Source: Candidatus Saccharimonadota bacterium
Lineage (GTDB): Bacteria > Patescibacteriota > Saccharimonadia > Saccharimonadales > Saccharimonadaceae
DNA length: 36,596 bases
Direction of reading: 5' to 3'
Assembly (NCBI GenBank): GCA_017406775.1
Contig: JAFQXV010000007.1
Location: forward strand, 1-36,596
A program made the translations under genes and the position numbers. Below, piece by piece: positions 30,373 to 36,596 of the stretch (positions are counted from its first letter, which is position 1; each line of letters opens with the position of its first letter). The notes beneath the pieces were generated by a model. The model had not been told where the DNA came from. It did no database searches and saw nothing but the letters and a program-made list of their open reading frames with translations.

Positions 30373-31209
30373 ATGAAAAAGATTTATCAACAAATTCAGG
30401 ATTATTTAGAGTATTGTGCGGGAGTGAGGGGAATGTCGCCAGTAACTTTAAGGACTAAAGCGTACGTATTAAATGATTTTGTGAGTGAGGTTGGTTTAAG
30501 GGATTTTAAAAAGATTAATAATAGGATTTTTGATAAATGGATAATGGCGAAGGTGAATAGCGGAATTATGCCTAGTTCGGTTAATATGTATGGTTCGGTG
30601 GTGTTAGCAGCAATTAAATATCATGCTCAATTTGGTATGAGGCTTAATTTTAATTATGGTTTGGTGACAAGGCAAAAGTGGAAAAGAGGTGAGCGGAAAT
30701 TTTACACGGTCAATGAGATTAAAGCTGCAATCGGGTATGCAGATGCGGAAACTGCGCTTCAGATACGAATAATGTTTGAAACTGGTATGAGAATTGCGGA
30801 GTTGGCGGAGTTAAGACTGAAAAATTTTGATGGGCAGAGAATTTGTTTTATTGGTAAAGGGAGGAAGTTTAGGGAGGTTTATCTCAAAAAAGAAACAGAA
30901 GAAGAGATAAGAGATTTTGTTTTTAAGAGCGGAACTAATGACTATTTATGGGGAGGTGGCACTATAAATGGTGAGCCTCCAACGGTAAATACGATAAGGA
31001 ATCGGATGAAGCGGTGTTTTAGAGCGGCTGGACTCGAGGGATTTTATCCGCATGCCTTGAGGCACTCTTTTGCGACTAATTTGCAATTAAACGGGGCATC
31101 GGTGGCAGAAATTAAAGAGATGATTGGGCATTCTAATATTGCTACTACTGAACGTTATTTGCATGGATTTGATGGGAGATTAGAAGAGTTGTTTTTAAAA
31201 TATAACTAA
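30373..31209 (+). CDS. Tyrosine recombinase (XerC/D or integrase type)
   Basis: The 278-aa enzyme has an N-terminal SAM-like DNA-binding domain (about 1-100) and the complete catalytic set R140, K162, H227, R230, H253 and nucleophile Y262 (motifs TGMRIAE, HALRHSFATN, GHSNIATTERYLH). Length and motifs fit XerC/XerD and small integrases. It could resolve chromosome dimers, but it sits beside an inverted-repeat surface locus and may be its invertase. The start is set at 30373 because upstream residues in frame lie over the preceding gene and hairpin. Confidence 0.92.
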   Translation: MKKIYQQIQDYLEYCAGVRGMSPVTLRTKAYVLNDFVSEVGLRDFKKINNRIFDKWIMAKVNSGIMPSSVNMYGSVVLAAIKYHAQFGMRLNFNYGLVTRQKWKRGERKFYTVNEIKAAIGYADAETALQIRIMFETGMRIAELAELRLKNFDGQRICFIGKGRKFREVYLKKETEEEIRDFVFKSGTNDYLWGGGTINGEPPTVNTIRNRMKRCFRAAGLEGFYPHALRHSFATNLQLNGASVAEIKEMIGHSNIATTERYLHGFDGRLEELFLKYN

Positions 31210-31210
31210 A

Positions 31211-31239
31211 AAAAATACCGCCTTAGTGGCGGTATTTTT
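31211..31239. terminator. Bidirectional terminator
   Basis: A/T-flanked ACCGCC (31217-31222) and GGCGGT (31228-31233) form a stem with T runs on both strands. It ends both the recombinase (+) and the convergent DUF916-like gene (-). Confidence 0.9.
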
Positions 31240-32177
31240 TATCGGCTGTTTTTTCTGTTCTTAGCTTTTACAACTAGCCAGATAATGATGCTAACTATAG
31301 CAAACACTACGATAAATAATAGCCAGAGCGGACAAACGATGATGGTTTTTTCTACGGTAGAAATTTCGCCAAAGATTTTGACCTCTTGTTTTATTCTGAA
31401 AATCCCGATTGCAGGCAAATCATATTCCTGATTATGATACTTAGACGTACCTGGTAGAACCATAATCTTTTCTGGATCCTCTACATTAGTAAATAGTTCT
31501 TCATCGCCAAACATTGGCCATACTTGAAGTCTATATTCTGCATCAGTGTGTATATTTCCGTTATTTTTCACAATAGACGATGCTTGTAATTTATTTGTCA
31601 ATAAGAAAGAAGGGATGCTATTCTCTAAGATTTCGCCCTCTTCTCTAGTTTCGCCAGCCACTTCAGCATAAATAATGTGAGCCATCTGCATAACTTCTTT
31701 AATAGCCATCTGATCATCTTCTGGCTCCGTAGAATCATTCTCTCGAACCAAGAGCGCCGCATATTGACCACCACCAGGTGCATCATACGGCACATTAATA
31801 GTGAAAGATACTGTTTTTTGTTCATTTGGCTGAATTGTGCCTTCTGGGTTATCTATGGTCATCCAGCTAACTATTTGGTTATTATTCGTAACGGTTTCGA
31901 AATCAGAGCCGCCAAGATTGCTGTCGCTAGTTTCGTTGTCGGCTAAAGAATATGGGGCGAGTGACACGAGATAATTGAATTCTTCCACCGTGTCGGATGG
32001 CACTGCTACCGTAATTGCACCATGATATGTTTCTCCGGGTATTAAAACTACCCTTTGATTCATTGGAGATACCGCAAATTTCTTTCCTACAGCTAAAACG
32101 TTTTTAATCCCAACTACACCAGAAAAGACGAACAGAAGTGCGACCACTAGCAATTTATATTTAATGTTATTTTTCAT
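31239..32177 (-). CDS. DUF916/WxLIP-like surface protein, left copy
   Basis: A 312-aa exported protein with signal peptide (about 1-29), Ig-like domains and a C-terminal membrane segment (about 283-305) followed by a basic tail. FAVSPMNQRVVLIPGETY and NVPYDAPGGGQYAALLV resemble the DUF916 WxL-interacting family, which binds cell wall and partners surface proteins in Gram-positive bacteria. It is paralogous to the protein at 35211-36173 over its full length. AAAGGAGGAAT lies before the ATG. It is the last gene of the left mirror operon. Confidence 0.8.
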   Translation of the reverse strand: MKNNIKYKLLVVALLFVFSGVVGIKNVLAVGKKFAVSPMNQRVVLIPGETYHGAITVAVPSDTVEEFNYLVSLAPYSLADNETSDSNLGGSDFETVTNNNQIVSWMTIDNPEGTIQPNEQKTVSFTINVPYDAPGGGQYAALLVRENDSTEPEDDQMAIKEVMQMAHIIYAEVAGETREEGEILENSIPSFLLTNKLQASSIVKNNGNIHTDAEYRLQVWPMFGDEELFTNVEDPEKIMVLPGTSKYHNQEYDLPAIGIFRIKQEVKIFGEISTVEKTIIVCPLWLLFIVVFAIVSIIIWLVVKAKNRKNSR

Positions 32178-32194
32178 ATTCCTCCTTTTAAAAC

Positions 32195-32758
32195 TTATTT
32201 TTGAATTTCACAATGAAAACCTTTGTTTTTATAAATACCAGCAATTTCTTCTACCGAGTAATTGCCGATTTTTGCATATTGTTCGTCATTTAGGGAAATA
32301 ATTTTTGCTGTGGCAGATGTCAGTGTTTTGTCGTCTAAAGATAAATTAATAATGGCATTATTTCCTATGGTGGAAAAAGTTGGCTGCAGGGCCTCTTGAT
32401 CAATATTAGTTTTGCTCATATATATATTGTAGTCAGCATGAGAAGTAGCGATAGCCTCATTGGCCTGCTCATTAGAATTATATTCTCTTGTAAAAGTATA
32501 GTTAATTTTATCTATGGAGCCGTTAGAGAAAAGTATTTTTAATTCATGTAGGGTTTTATTGGCGTCATATGACACAAAGAAAGGCTCATTAATTACGCTT
32601 GCTGAGCAATAAACACTAGAAATTAAAGTAATTTTACCAGTATCTACCGAAGTATGTTCTTCTTTTCCACTAAATATAATAATAAAGGGGATAAGAATGA
32701 TCAGTATTAAGATACACATTACTCCGATTACTTTGTACCTTGAGCGATTCTCTTCCAC
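32195..32758 (-). CDS. 187-aa anchored protein, left copy
   Basis: Family not recognised. It has a membrane segment (about 10-30), then an exterior domain with two shared landmarks: a cysteine after SSVY and the end GFHCEIQK. The right-hand copy has the same length (187 aa) and matching features (SLEC, DFSCEITN), so the two are diverged paralogues. GTG start with AAGGAGG 4-5 nt upstream. The gene lies between the surface protein and the DUF916-like gene, 17 nt before the latter. Confidence 0.75.
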   Translation of the reverse strand: MEENRSRYKVIGVMCILILIILIPFIIIFSGKEEHTSVDTGKITLISSVYCSASVINEPFFVSYDANKTLHELKILFSNGSIDKINYTFTREYNSNEQANEAIATSHADYNIYMSKTNIDQEALQPTFSTIGNNAIINLSLDDKTLTSATAKIISLNDEQYAKIGNYSVEEIAGIYKNKGFHCEIQK

Positions 32759-32795
32759 TGATCCTCCTTATTTTAAATTAAATTTTCTTCGTATA

Positions 32796-32825
32796 AAAAA
32801 CAGCCCCACCCCCAGGGCTGTTTTT
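32796..32825 (-). terminator. Terminator after the left surface protein
   Basis: AAAAACAGCCC pairs with GGGCTGTTTTT (about 32796-32806 with 32815-32825), giving T runs on both strands. It lies between the surface gene and the 187-aa gene and probably passes only part of transcription, making the surface protein the most abundant product. Confidence 0.85.
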
Positions 32826-32835
32826 CAGACTTTTA

Positions 32836-33384
32836 TTAGTTAGAAGTCTTATCTGTAAATGTATAGGTGATAGTACCCTCATAAGTACCATTCTCTTGTA
32901 TAGCACTCGTGCGAGCTTTGTAGGCAGGAGTAACAGTGATAGCGTTAACCTGGGTACCAGAAACAACTACGGTGTTGCTTGCTGTTGTTCCAGCATAACT
33001 ATCCCAACCGGATGCAACAGTACCACCGGTAGCGGTGAGCTTTGCAGACCATTTAGATTCAGCTGTTGAAGGATACGCACCAAATGGGATAGCGGTTGTA
33101 CCAGCACCACCAGCCAAAGATGTAGCAGTTGCGCTAATTTCCCAACCTGCGGTACCGTTACAGGTAACCGTTAGGACGGAACCGGTTTTTTCTGCATATT
33201 CAGAACCTGCTACTGCGGAGCCTAGGTTAACAGTTTTTGCTGCAGCATCGGCATCCATTGCGCAAGTCTTTGTTACGGTAAGCTGAACGGTGTCAACTAC
33301 CGAAGTCTGAGTAGCTGCAAAAGTTCCGACTACTGGCATAGCTGCCAAAGCTGCAGATGCACCTAAGATTGCTAATTTTTTCAT
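32836..33384 (-). CDS. Secreted surface protein, left copy
   Basis: A 182-aa protein with a clear signal peptide (MKKLAILGASAALAAMPVVG, cleavage near AFA/ATQ) and a small beta-rich domain with two cysteines (TKTCAMD, VTCNGTAGWEIS) and the end NGTYEGTITYTF. It resembles pilin-subunit or WxL-type surface proteins in style, but no family is certain. The right copy has the same signal peptide and landmarks but a strongly diverged mature part. AGAGGAG lies 10 nt before the ATG. An in-frame start at 33486 would run over the promoter. Confidence 0.85.
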   Translation of the reverse strand: MKKLAILGASAALAAMPVVGTFAATQTSVVDTVQLTVTKTCAMDADAAAKTVNLGSAVAGSEYAEKTGSVLTVTCNGTAGWEISATATSLAGGAGTTAIPFGAYPSTAESKWSAKLTATGGTVASGWDSYAGTTASNTVVVSGTQVNAITVTPAYKARTSAIQENGTYEGTITYTFTDKTSN

Positions 33385-33440
33385 AGTAATTTTTCTCCTC
33401 TGCCTAAGCAGAATTATTTTATATTTTGTGTTAAATGTAT
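33326..33440. repeat. Left arm of a 115-bp inverted repeat
   Basis: This segment is the reverse complement of 33873-33987 with 5 mismatches in 115 bp. Bases 33386-33440, which are non-coding, match perfectly over 55 bp. The arm covers the leader, ribosome binding site and signal-peptide codons of the left surface gene. A TCTGC-TTAG-GCAGA hairpin lies within it. Confidence 0.95.
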
Positions 33441-33872
33441 AACCTTTAACATTTCTTATTTTACATAAGCTTAATTGTGTTGTCAAGCATTTTTAATGTA
33501 ATTTTAAGCTTCAAACTACCAGACTTTTCCACAAGTAAGTACTTTGTTATTAGAGTAGTATAGCTATATAAACAGGTATACATGTAACGCATTTTTTTCT
33601 TTAATGTTACCGTCGTATAATATATGGGCTCTTCTACTTGTTAAAAAAGTTCTTTACGGTATTTTTAAGTGAATATATCAGACATTTTTACTGGATTTTA
33701 CTTCGATCGGTATGATATTTTATTAGGTATCAACTTATTCTTTACTAACATATAATCTTTTTCCGCATAATCATAATCACAATTACAGCTCTTCAAGACC
33801 ATATTTTATTAAACATCGTAAAGTTATTTTGTATTCTAAGTAGCCATTTTATGCTTCATAAACGTAATTTCA
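33441..33872. other. Candidate invertible promoter segment (432 bp)
   Basis: The spacer between the inverted repeat arms has no plausible gene and is very AT-rich. It holds the left-facing promoter. A TATAAT (33616-33621) points right but has no good -35 and lies 250 nt from the right gene; near the right arm only TTGTAT (33828-33833)/TATGCT (33850-33855) is seen. Inversion would place the strong promoter before the right operon. Confidence 0.6.
33458..33486 (-). promoter_or_regulatory. Strong promoter facing the left surface operon
   Basis: On the minus strand TTGACA (33486-33481), 17 nt and TAAAAT (33463-33458) lie just inside the spacer, next to the left repeat arm. The start would be near 33451, giving a leader of about 66 nt. 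No equally good promoter faces right. Confidence 0.85.
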
Positions 33873-33987
33873 ATACATTTAACACAAAATATAAAATAAT
33901 TCTGCTTAGGCAGAGGAGAAAAATTACAATGAAAAAATTAGCAATCTTAGGCGCATCTGCAGCACTCGCAGCTATGCCAGTAGTCGG
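33873..33987. repeat. Right arm of a 115-bp inverted repeat
   Basis: Mirror of 33326-33440. It covers the leader, Shine-Dalgarno and signal peptide of the right surface gene. The 55-bp non-coding part (33873-33927) is identical to the left arm, while the mature coding regions beyond the arms are strongly diverged. Confidence 0.95.
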
Positions 33988-34519
33988 TGTATTTGCAGCA
34001 GATTTAAGCGTGACGGATACTATCCAAATCACCGTAAGTGATTCTTGTACAATCACGGAAGGTAGCACGACCGATGGTCTTGACAACAAGGATACTACTT
34101 ATGCTGATACGGTTGCAAACGGTGCGGAAACGACATTTAGTACCACACATAGTGGCAATCATACTTTCCATGTAACTTGTAACGATAAAGATGGTTGGTC
34201 TTTCTCGGCTACTCCAACTAATCTTACTGGTTATGTTGCTGCCAATGATTCAACAACGAATGGTGATTCTATTAACTTCGTGGCTTCAGGTAGCTATGTG
34301 AGTACTGGTGCTGCTGGTGATTGGACCGCTACAATTACTGCACCAGCTGGTATCACTGTTACGCAACCTTCGACAGCTGGAAGCTCCAATACGATTATCA
34401 CATCCTCCAATCAGGCTGCGAATGTCGAAATTGTTTCTGCTTACAAAGCATACGTAGGTACTGAAACTGCAGCTGGTTTCTATGAAGGTAGTATTTCTTA
34501 TGTATTAGCTGCCCTCTAA
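33929..34519 (+). CDS. Secreted surface protein, right copy
   Basis: The 196-aa protein has the same first 20 residues as the left copy and then diverges. Shared landmarks are a cysteine pair (SDSCTI, VTCNDKDGWSFS), a tryptophan strand (DWTATIT) and the end GFYEGSISYVL. It should be exported and beta-rich. AGAGGAG lies 10 nt before the ATG, in the repeat arm. In the orientation given here, no strong promoter is seen upstream, so it may be silent. A longer start at 33851 is rejected because the arm is otherwise non-coding. Confidence 0.85.
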   Translation: MKKLAILGASAALAAMPVVGVFAADLSVTDTIQITVSDSCTITEGSTTDGLDNKDTTYADTVANGAETTFSTTHSGNHTFHVTCNDKDGWSFSATPTNLTGYVAANDSTTNGDSINFVASGSYVSTGAAGDWTATITAPAGITVTQPSTAGSSNTIITSSNQAANVEIVSAYKAYVGTETAAGFYEGSISYVLAAL

Positions 34520-34537
34520 TATTTACATATTAGTAAT

Positions 34538-34565
34538 AATAATCCCCCTTTTCAGGGGGATTATT
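34538..34565 (+). terminator. Hairpin after the right surface protein
   Basis: AATAATCCCCC (34538-34548) and GGGGGATTATT (34555-34565) form an 11-bp stem; a T-rich stretch follows at 34571. It occupies the same operon position as the left-hand terminator at 32796-32825, though its sequence differs. Confidence 0.75.
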
Positions 34566-34613
34566 GTATGGTTTTTGTTTTAGATTTGTGGTATTCTTAA
34601 AGAAAGGAGGTAA

Positions 34614-35177
34614 ATGGATACTAAGAGAGAAAAAAGGTTCAATTTAACAGTTTGCTTTTTTGTTGTAGCGTTCGTTATTGTAATAATTTTTTTGTTAATG
34701 ATAATCTTTAATGGAGAGAAATCAGAGGATATCAGAATAACTGGTGGTGGAAAGAGCACGAGTCTAGAATGTACGGATTCGAGACTTTTGCATCCAGCGC
34801 TCAGAGATCGCACTCCTATTTCGCATATCAATACGATCACTGCGACTTTTAGTGATGATACTTTGTCTTCAATTACATTGTATTATGTGGGGACTTACAG
34901 CTCATCTGCGGAGGCCGAGCAGGCTGAGGCATATGCTCAGGCCGATTATGGCTTAATTCCAGCTAAAGAAATGCATATTAACGTTGAATCATTTTCGCAT
35001 TCATTTATGATGGATGGCGTAAAGGTTGGCATGACAATTACGGCAAAGAATGATGATGTTAATGATAAAAATGCACCATATTTTTTGTTAGAACAGGGGA
35101 GAGCTTTTCCAAGAACTTTAGATAGTATGAAACAGAGGTACGAAGAGAAAGATTTTTCTTGTGAAATAACTAATTAA
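34614..35177 (+). CDS. 187-aa anchored protein, right copy
   Basis: Paralogue of the left 187-aa protein. It has a membrane segment (about 11-32), then an exterior domain with SLECTDSRL, a helix rich in E and A (SSAEAEQAEAYAQADYG) that matches NEQANEAIATSHADYN on the left, and the end DFSCEITN. The two cysteines are shared. AAAGGAGG lies 4 nt before the ATG, and a weak extended -10 (TGGTATTCT) lies upstream. Function unknown. Confidence 0.8.
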   Translation: MDTKREKRFNLTVCFFVVAFVIVIIFLLMIIFNGEKSEDIRITGGGKSTSLECTDSRLLHPALRDRTPISHINTITATFSDDTLSSITLYYVGTYSSSAEAEQAEAYAQADYGLIPAKEMHINVESFSHSFMMDGVKVGMTITAKNDDVNDKNAPYFLLEQGRAFPRTLDSMKQRYEEKDFSCEITN

Positions 35178-35178
35178 T

Positions 35179-35187
35179 TGCTATAAT
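35179..35187 (+). promoter_or_regulatory. Extended -10 before the right DUF916-like gene
   Basis: TGCTATAAT at 35179-35187 overlaps the end of the gap after the 187-aa gene and gives a short leader with AAAGGAGGT. Confidence 0.55.
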
Positions 35188-35210
35188 TAAGTATAATTAA
35201 AGGAGGTAGA

Positions 35211-36173
35211 ATGACTTCAATCAAAAGAGTACTATTTGGGTTGGTGGGAATAACAATTATGGCCACTGGATTATTTTTGTCCCAGGAATCAGTTTCGGCT
35301 TTTTCTGTATCACCGATGAAGCAGACGATTTCTTTGGCTCCAGGGCAAACTTATTCAAACAGAGTTACAGTTTCTTTGCCGCTTGATGATAATAAGAATA
35401 TGAATTATGAAGTATCGATAGTTCCATTCAAAGTTAATGATAGCAACAATGGTTATAGTATAGATTTGACTAGTTCAGATGAACGTAACGAAATAGTTAA
35501 GTGGGTTTCTTTGTCGGATGGGAAAAAAGCTGTGAACGATGGAGATGTCCTGACTGGCGAGTTATCTCCTGGGGAAAGTATTGATTTTATTTATACTATT
35601 AATGTACCTTACTCGGTGTTGGGTGGTGGTCAGTATTTTGCCGTGTTGGTGAAATCAGTCCCTAATTCGTCTGATGGCGAGGATAATAATTTAGCGATTT
35701 CCGAAATTCAATCTATCGCATCGGTAGTGTATGCGGAATTACCAGGCGAAATTAAACTTGACGGAACGATAAAGGAAAACAATATAAATGGGTTCTTATT
35801 AAGTCCACCGATTAATGCGTCATTTGTCGCAGTAAATGACGGAAATACGCACTTTGCTGTAACTTACTATTTGCAAGTTTATCCTCTGTTTTCTGATGAA
35901 GAGATTTACACAAATGAAGAAAACGCACAAACAGATTATGTATTGCCAGGGACATCAAGATATATTAGTCAAAGTTGGGATAAAACGCCATCGATTGGGA
36001 TTTTTAAAGTGCGCCAGACTGCCTATATAGATTCTAATAAAGATGAGGCGAGTATTACGGAAAGGGTTGTGGTAGTTTGTCCAGTTTACTTGTTATTCTT
36101 GATTGTGTTTGCAATTATTATGATTGCCCTTTGGATTGTTTTTAAAATTAAGAGCCGCAAGGTTAGTCGCTAA
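35211..36173 (+). CDS. DUF916/WxLIP-like surface protein, right copy
   Basis: A 320-aa paralogue of the left DUF916-like protein. It has a signal peptide (about 1-30), FSVSPMKQTISLAPGQTY, NVPYSVLGGGQYFAVLV, LPGTSRY and a C-terminal membrane segment (about 292-312) with a basic tail. The shared outline with the left copy extends over the whole protein. AAAGGAGGT lies 5 nt before the ATG. It may hold or assemble the secreted surface protein of its own operon at the cell wall. Confidence 0.8.
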   Translation: MTSIKRVLFGLVGITIMATGLFLSQESVSAFSVSPMKQTISLAPGQTYSNRVTVSLPLDDNKNMNYEVSIVPFKVNDSNNGYSIDLTSSDERNEIVKWVSLSDGKKAVNDGDVLTGELSPGESIDFIYTINVPYSVLGGGQYFAVLVKSVPNSSDGEDNNLAISEIQSIASVVYAELPGEIKLDGTIKENNINGFLLSPPINASFVAVNDGNTHFAVTYYLQVYPLFSDEEIYTNEENAQTDYVLPGTSRYISQSWDKTPSIGIFKVRQTAYIDSNKDEASITERVVVVCPVYLLFLIVFAIIMIALWIVFKIKSRKVSR

Positions 36174-36283: not shown

Positions 36284-36471
36284 AGTTTAAGCAAGTCGCC
36301 TTTTGCGACCTCTACAAAAAGAAATGGAAAGCGAGGAATCTTTTGAGGTCGCTTTAACGGCTTCAAAATTATTCTTAAGGACTCTCCAATTAACAATTTG
36401 GAAACGATAAAGATTTTAAAGACGGAACGAGTAATCGAATATCGATTGCTAGTTAAGTCAATGCATAAAAA
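36284..36471 (+). other. 23S rRNA leader
   Basis: No gene. GTCGC/GCGAC (about 36295-36309) form a small hairpin, while GCGACCTC can alternatively pair with GAGGTCGC about 30 nt further on (near 36343-36350). These could serve rRNA processing or antitermination. No clear boxA was recognised. Confidence 0.6.
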
Positions 36472-36596
36472 GGTAATTAAGGGCACTGATAGTGGATGCC
36501 TTGACAATCAATACCGATGAAGGCCGTAGGACTCTGCGATAAGCCTCGGGGATCTGAGAACGAGAAATGATCCGGGGATTGCCGAATGGGGAAACC
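36472..36596 (+). rRNA. rrl: 23S ribosomal RNA, 5' part (runs off the window)
   Basis: The sequence shows conserved 23S domain I landmarks: GTGGATGCCTTG, CCGATGAAGG, CTGCGATAAGC, GATCCGGGGAT and CCGAATGGGGAAACC. The 5' end is approximate; 36472 gives a start like other bacteria, and a start near 36452 (GTTAAGTC) is possible. The preceding gene is protein-coding with a terminator, so no 16S rRNA is cotranscribed from within the window. Confidence 0.95.

Follow-up and report, generated by a model that had tools for sequence, protein, structure and literature searches.

A candidate promoter-inversion switch between two mirrored surface operons in Saccharibacteria

Two divergent surface operons beside a tyrosine recombinase

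Saccharibacteria have very small genomes and live on other bacteria. The stretch of DNA analysed here (the window, 36,596 nucleotides) is the whole of one contig (JAFQXV010000007.1, C3 in our numbering) of a 720-kb genome of Candidatus Saccharimonadota bacterium, and the contig ends inside a 23S ribosomal RNA (rRNA) gene. Before this gene lie two operons of identical gene order, encoding a secreted protein (SEC), a membrane-anchored protein (M187) and a protein termed D916, which point away from each other, as was originally predicted and as the coordinates and strands of the open reading frames (ORFs) bear out. A tyrosine recombinase gene, INT, adjoins the left operon. The locus is very probably a phase-variation switch, in which the adjacent recombinase would invert the sole promoter and thereby choose the surface operon that is expressed. 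The features are listed below; G, C and L numbers denote genomes, contigs and loci.

30373..31209, plus strand: INT, tyrosine recombinase, 278 amino acids, the proposed inversion enzyme (PF00589, E 3.6e-27)
31239..32177, minus strand: left D916, WxLIP-like, two immunoglobulin-like (Ig-like) domains and a C-terminal membrane helix (PF06030 matches in the family; model of the right copy)
32195..32758, minus strand: left M187, membrane-anchored, 187 amino acids (ORF with an N-terminal hydrophobic segment)
32836..33384, minus strand: left SEC, secreted, 182 amino acids, behind the promoter-bearing leader, its operon predicted to be ON in this assembly (signal peptide; SEC family conserved)
33326..33440, minus strand: left arm of the inverted repeat, which spans the 5' untranslated region (5' UTR) of left SEC and the beginning of its signal peptide (differs from the right arm at 5 of 115 bp)
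33418..33435, minus strand: left core copy, TTTAACACAAAATATAAA, the proposed crossover site (core length agrees within loci; degenerate without INT)
33458..33486, minus strand: left-facing promoter, TTGACA-N17-TAAAAT (sequence match)
33441..33872, no strand: proposed invertible spacer, 432 bp, with the promoter at its left end (promoter end aligns in the opposite direction in G018)
33873..33987, plus strand: right arm of the inverted repeat, the leader of right SEC, promoterless and putatively silent (promoter scores in the preceding 200 nt do not exceed background)
33878..33895, plus strand: right core copy (core pattern match)
33929..34519, plus strand: right SEC, secreted, 196 amino acids, predicted pilin-like beta sandwich, predicted silent in the present orientation (model with a predicted local distance difference test score, pLDDT, of 86)
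34614..35177, plus strand: right M187, membrane-anchored, 187 amino acids (ORF; position in the family)
35211..36173, plus strand: right D916, WxLIP-like, 320 amino acids (Foldseek 3.9e-10 to 9i1y; VIA-align Z 13.0 to 9i25_C)
36467..36596, plus strand: beginning of the 23S rRNA gene, a constant right boundary of the locus throughout the genus, in which the contig ends (RF02541)

The inverted repeat that joins the two operon starts had been described correctly to the base: of its five mismatches the first lies at 33928, leaving the 55 bp of 33873-33927 perfect, and the spacer between the arms has a GC content of 27%. When extended to 127 nt, the repeat contains nine mismatches (93% identity), and a search of the whole source genome found no further copy. 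The signal peptides of left and right SEC are near-identical and the mature proteins are strongly diverged, with identities of 44.6% for SEC (57 of 153 residues in the mature part), 22% for M187, which occupies the position between SEC and D916 in most loci, and 44.6% for D916. The 5' UTR also contains a short hairpin directly before the ribosome site (33399-33412 and 33901-33914), which is kept in other species with changes that are partly compensatory (double changes in 4/6 pairs, and several breaks).

The recombinase is complete, as had been claimed, with R140, K165, H227, R230, H253 and Y262 invariant across 20 aligned family members in addition to its Phage_integrase match, and is one of only two tyrosine recombinases in the source genome. 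It is XerA/XerC-like yet falls far below the NCBIfam equivalog cut-offs for the housekeeping Xer proteins (123 against 220 bits for XerA, 107 against 335 for XerC, 85 against 330 for XerD), and it scores far below the NCBIfam DNA-invertase models as well (29.0 against a cut-off of 222). The promoter of the left operon, read from 33486 to 33458 on the minus strand, is the only match to 11 of 12 consensus positions, and a promoter weight matrix applied to the 200 nt upstream of the right arm gave nothing above background, in agreement with the single left-facing promoter that had been predicted.

Association of INT with silent leaders and a shared core

INT and the neighbouring GmrSD-type gene were searched for in 174 genomes of the genus, and about 110 loci were read. 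The gene order is fixed: M341, GmrSD, rhod232, often thio159, the surface operons and the 23S rRNA gene. INT (at least 47% identity) is present in 20 of the 174 genomes. In each of them it lies in this locus, in some at a contig end. Loci that lack INT usually contain one operon or tandem genes on a single strand, with promoter-bearing leaders, whereas loci with INT contain mirrored operons. Silent mirrored leaders were found in 16/16 assessable genomes with INT and in 0/50 without. Within this count, hand assignment was used for G012, G035 and G058, on two contigs each, and for G163, on a single visible, promoterless leader. On a tree of the GmrSD protein, the distribution of INT needs 17 changes, of which at least seven are forced by well-supported branches, and 7/7 phylogenetically independent pairs agree in linking INT to silent mirrored leaders (p = 0.016). 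The association is therefore not the outcome of one ancestral event.

The same partition is seen in the promoters. By the leader profile, loci with INT have 16 leaders with a promoter and 22 without, and never two promoters in one locus, whereas a promoter precedes 39/40 leaders in loci without INT, the exception (G208) having a variant. Median promoter matrix scores are 19.7 for active arms and 0.6 for silent arms, compared with about 1 for shuffled sequence. On this basis, the promoterless operon is presumably not transcribed.

Both arms share a core, TTTAACAC(A)AAATATAAA. Its copies are the same throughout any one locus, and in loci without INT it is degenerate. A possible resemblance of the core to the XerD arm of dif carries no weight in the present argument. 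In 18 active/silent pairs, each from the same locus and aligned with the ACAC of the core at position 0, homology begins abruptly at the core: identity is at chance up to about -16, reaches 100% from -1 to +11, and is 75-94% beyond. The core is found in 15/15 active and 22/23 silent readable leaders of INT loci, compared with 3/40 leaders without INT (p = 7e-11). It exists in two lengths (17 or 18 nt), and its copies agree in 15/15 loci with multiple leaders, an agreement equalled in 0 of 100,000 permutations; even the odd form of G191, TTGACACAAATATAA, is found in both arms. A 28-base core pattern occurs in the source genome exactly twice, once per arm on opposite strands, and its reverse occurs in none of the genus genomes. 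In G117, G039 and G196 the 5' UTR hairpin differs between the arms and the core is common to both, and the crossover is therefore placed in the core. At the level of sequence, this is what site-specific recombination would require: an exchange region that is identical within each genome and not from one genome to the next.

Proposed promoter inversion and its alternatives

Comparison of related genomes, which had been proposed as a check, revealed both orientations of the spacer: 10 species have the promoter directed towards the rRNA gene and three have it directed away (that of the window, G111 and G196). The window and G018 have the same flanks and homologous right operons (SEC 73%, M187 62%, D916 73% identical), with the promoter end of the spacer reversed. 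In G191 and G196, the flanks are colinear and 94.5% identical, and the promoter/leader block gives its best alignment when reversed (82% over 220 bp).

G196 also provides a natural knock-out. Its INT has two in-frame stops, and M187 and D916 of its promoterless operon are broken by stops. G055, a close relative, has no INT and a single intact, promoter-driven operon; the D916 encoded there matches the decayed D916 of G196 better than any other (66%). In G191, which belongs to the same clade, INT and both operons are intact. A silent operon that has decayed alongside a dead recombinase is the pattern that would be expected if such an operon were useful only as long as it could be switched on.

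These observations suggest the following mechanism. INT would invert the DNA between two short cores (TTTAACACAAAATATAAA in the window) located in the 5' UTRs of divergent operons; as the invertible segment carries the only promoter, one operon would be transcribed and the other would be silent, and inversion would swap them. Where a relative has at least three leaders, these sites would also invert individual SEC genes ahead of an unchanging anchor/WxLIP pair. Three leaders are present in G117 and in G121. In G152 a promoter-driven SEC is followed by another SEC, which is convergent to it and has a silent leader of its own, and then by M187 and D916, such that inversion between the two SEC leaders would change which SEC precedes these anchor genes. 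Shufflons rely on multiple inversions of 3' cassettes. The likeness to them is that G117, G152 and G121 carry SEC genes in both orientations between inverted sites, and gene order thus points to a shufflon-like second layer in such relatives; unlike in shufflons, the sites are 5', within the leader, and the exchange would involve entire genes instead of C-termini. That the locus belongs to a two-layer Saccharibacteria system, in which promoter inversion between WxLIP operons is combined with inversion of SEC genes, and which has been repeatedly gained or lost in the genus and gives a streamlined epibiont a combinatorial choice of surface proteins or fibres, is somewhat more likely than not.

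The original prediction that inversion of the spacer chooses the surface operon is supported because INT tracks silent mirrored leaders, each locus has one promoter, both orientations occur, the core is shared, and the silent operon has decayed in G196. We infer that INT itself performs the inversion and that inversion happens within populations. Several observations weigh against this account. All the orientation differences observed are between species, the operons of G191 and G196 are too diverged to be traced, and in 10/13 resolved species the promoter faces the rRNA gene, which may indicate that switching is biased or rare. Furthermore, within-locus identity reaches through the 5' UTR (0.91) and signal peptide (0.88), compared with 0.78 and 0.73 between loci, and a crossover at the core alone does not explain it. 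A scan of contigs for a second genome of one species found none and gave the same assemblies, and contig ends at leaders in G035, G009 and G144, which fit repeat collapse or mixed orientations, were not counted as evidence.

The arm identity outside the core implies that homologous exchange between the arms also acts. The earlier observation of identical non-coding arms beside diverged mature proteins thus holds, and the repeated exchange proposed to account for it separates into two parts: the sharp identity appears to mark the recombination core, at 33418-33435 and 33878-33895, and that of the remaining 5' UTR and signal peptide is best read as concerted evolution beyond simple flipping. It could be argued that the long inverted repeat is kept identical entirely by general homologous recombination (RecA-type inversion or gene conversion), with INT being incidental or having another role, given that 55-115 bp of identity could serve homologous exchange and that this identity extends beyond the core and is higher within than between loci. 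This is unlikely, however, as INT is tied to silent mirrored leaders in independent lineages, the core is constrained only where INT is present and agrees in length within loci, the arms of G117, G039 and G196 share the core despite their different hairpins, and the silent operon decayed where INT is dead.

Still less likely is a static inverted duplication, in which one operon is expressed, the other is stably unused or separately regulated, and the orientation differences are old and fixed. Such an arrangement is consistent with the orientation differences having been seen between species and with the predominance of promoters that face the rRNA gene, but it does not predict that silent operons are intact with an intact INT and broken in G196, that every resolved INT locus has one promoter despite high divergence, or that the core is conserved throughout the genus only together with INT. 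Least probable of all is the notion that the inverted repeat is merely the conserved 5' UTR and signal-peptide sequence of two paralogues whose operons are both transcribed: leaders are conserved between species even without INT, and changes in the hairpin before the ribosome site are in part compensatory, but silent arms are at promoter background over 200 nt where nearly all leaders without INT have a promoter, and the shared sequence ends sharply at the core.

Surface proteins, known systems and related loci

The label "DUF916-like" given to D916 in the original prediction was apt. D916 is a distant WxLIP protein: 24/60 family members match PF06030 (WxLIP_PGBD), although the left copy remains below the gathering score (15.2 against 27.3 bits) and the right copy has no match to this model. 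The model of right D916 (pLDDT 92) has as its best fold match the WxLIP of E. faecium, followed by pilus chaperones (Foldseek 3.9e-10 to 9i1y; VIA-align Z 13.0 to 9i25_C and 12.3), which indicates that D916 has a predicted WxLIP fold and is a distant relative rather than a scored Pfam member. The model of right SEC is a beta sandwich nearest to chaperone-usher fimbrial pilins at middling scores (best VIA-align Z 8.1 to CfaE/CfaB, Foldseek 2e-3 to the Csu pilin), possibly by way of a common arrangement. VIA-align returns many Ig-like folds for both SEC and D916, and families beyond those listed may also fit; a donor-strand fibre of SEC is a possibility raised by the model. The source genome has three more WxLIP-like genes (L066, G000:C12:147525; L067, G000:C1:4448; L068, G000:C14:11604), 21-32% identical to right D916. 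A terminator-like hairpin lies between SEC and M187 in both operons (32791-32830 and 34536-34567), and these hairpins could raise the amount of secreted protein above that of the anchor proteins.

A proposed role of WxLIP is to bind WxL proteins at the Gram-positive cell surface and to stabilise them there (PMC10599100). As in the WxL/WxLIP clusters of Gram-positives (PMC10599100), a protein of WxLIP fold, here D916, is in an operon with a small secreted protein; unlike in those clusters, the secreted protein matches no Pfam WxL model (0/63 SEC proteins at E 0.01). No recombinase-driven switching of WxL/WxLIP clusters was found in the open-licence PubMed Central literature, within which the present locus would be the first link between WxLIP-type surface complexes and recombinase-driven phase variation. 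Likewise, no report of phase variation, an inverton or an invertible promoter in Saccharibacteria or Patescibacteria was found in the open-licence literature, subscription papers being outside this search.

The closest known systems are vpma of Mycoplasma agalactiae (Xer1) and vsp of M. bovis, in which one promoter likewise serves several surface genes (PMC2268961). In vpma, the one promoter is accompanied by silent genes whose 5' UTRs and signal peptides are conserved, Xer1 adjoins them, and mutants without Xer1 are phase-locked (PMC2268961). The likeness extends to the adjoining tyrosine recombinase, to sites in conserved 5' UTRs at which inversion joins silent genes to the promoter, and to conserved signal peptides on diverged mature proteins. 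In contrast to these Mollicutes systems, the Saccharibacteria locus would switch whole three-gene operons, its surface proteins are unrelated, and in most loci two divergent operons occupy a set position ahead of the 23S rRNA gene. The likeness to vpma is considered functional, by analogy, and common descent is not claimed.

The fimS element is an on/off switch; here, by contrast, the promoter would move between two operons. Enterobacterial and Bacteroides invertible promoters (fimS, with FimB/FimE, among others) nonetheless resemble the present arrangement in that a short promoter segment between inverted repeats is flipped by a recombinase, and they often lie in front of surface structures (PMC6083910, PMC4747536). 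That a dedicated switch for entire surface complexes, fixed in its place, has been gained or lost repeatedly suggests strong selection on surface variation, the source of which could be hosts, phages or immunity, and the locus indicates which proteins matter.

Records with the closest INT relatives are from uncultured Saccharibacteria, mostly of ruminant guts, and the named ones are metagenome-assembled. A scan of viral contigs yielded one partial relative (48%) and one weak one, which speaks neither for nor against a phage origin. INT also has more distant paralogues (30-42% identity), some of them in other genera of the family. No leader adjoins any of these, and nearly every one lacks an inverted-repeat pair, the exceptions being G129 and a locus of another genus, G455. 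This contrast favours the proposed role of INT at the surface locus, and extension of the switch claim to these paralogues was dropped. In G129 (L245, G129:C7:3203-4728), a 98-bp inverted repeat of 73% identity lies about 1 kb downstream of the paralogue, and no leader or SEC gene was found there. In G190 (L120, G190:C7), two large SEC-related secreted proteins are encoded near a 39% identical paralogue at a contig end, and no inverted repeat was found at this site.

A 5.6-kb contig of G119 (L246, G119:C5) contains a silent leader whose upstream sequence appears to be the same as that of the contig-end leader of G035 (L039), and it is possibly a mis-binned continuation of a G035-like locus. 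Finally, the flanks of L105, L106 and L036 are 92-96% identical, with surface operons that are mostly just 30-66% identical in protein, indicating that replacement or diversification is much quicker in the operons than in the DNA around them.

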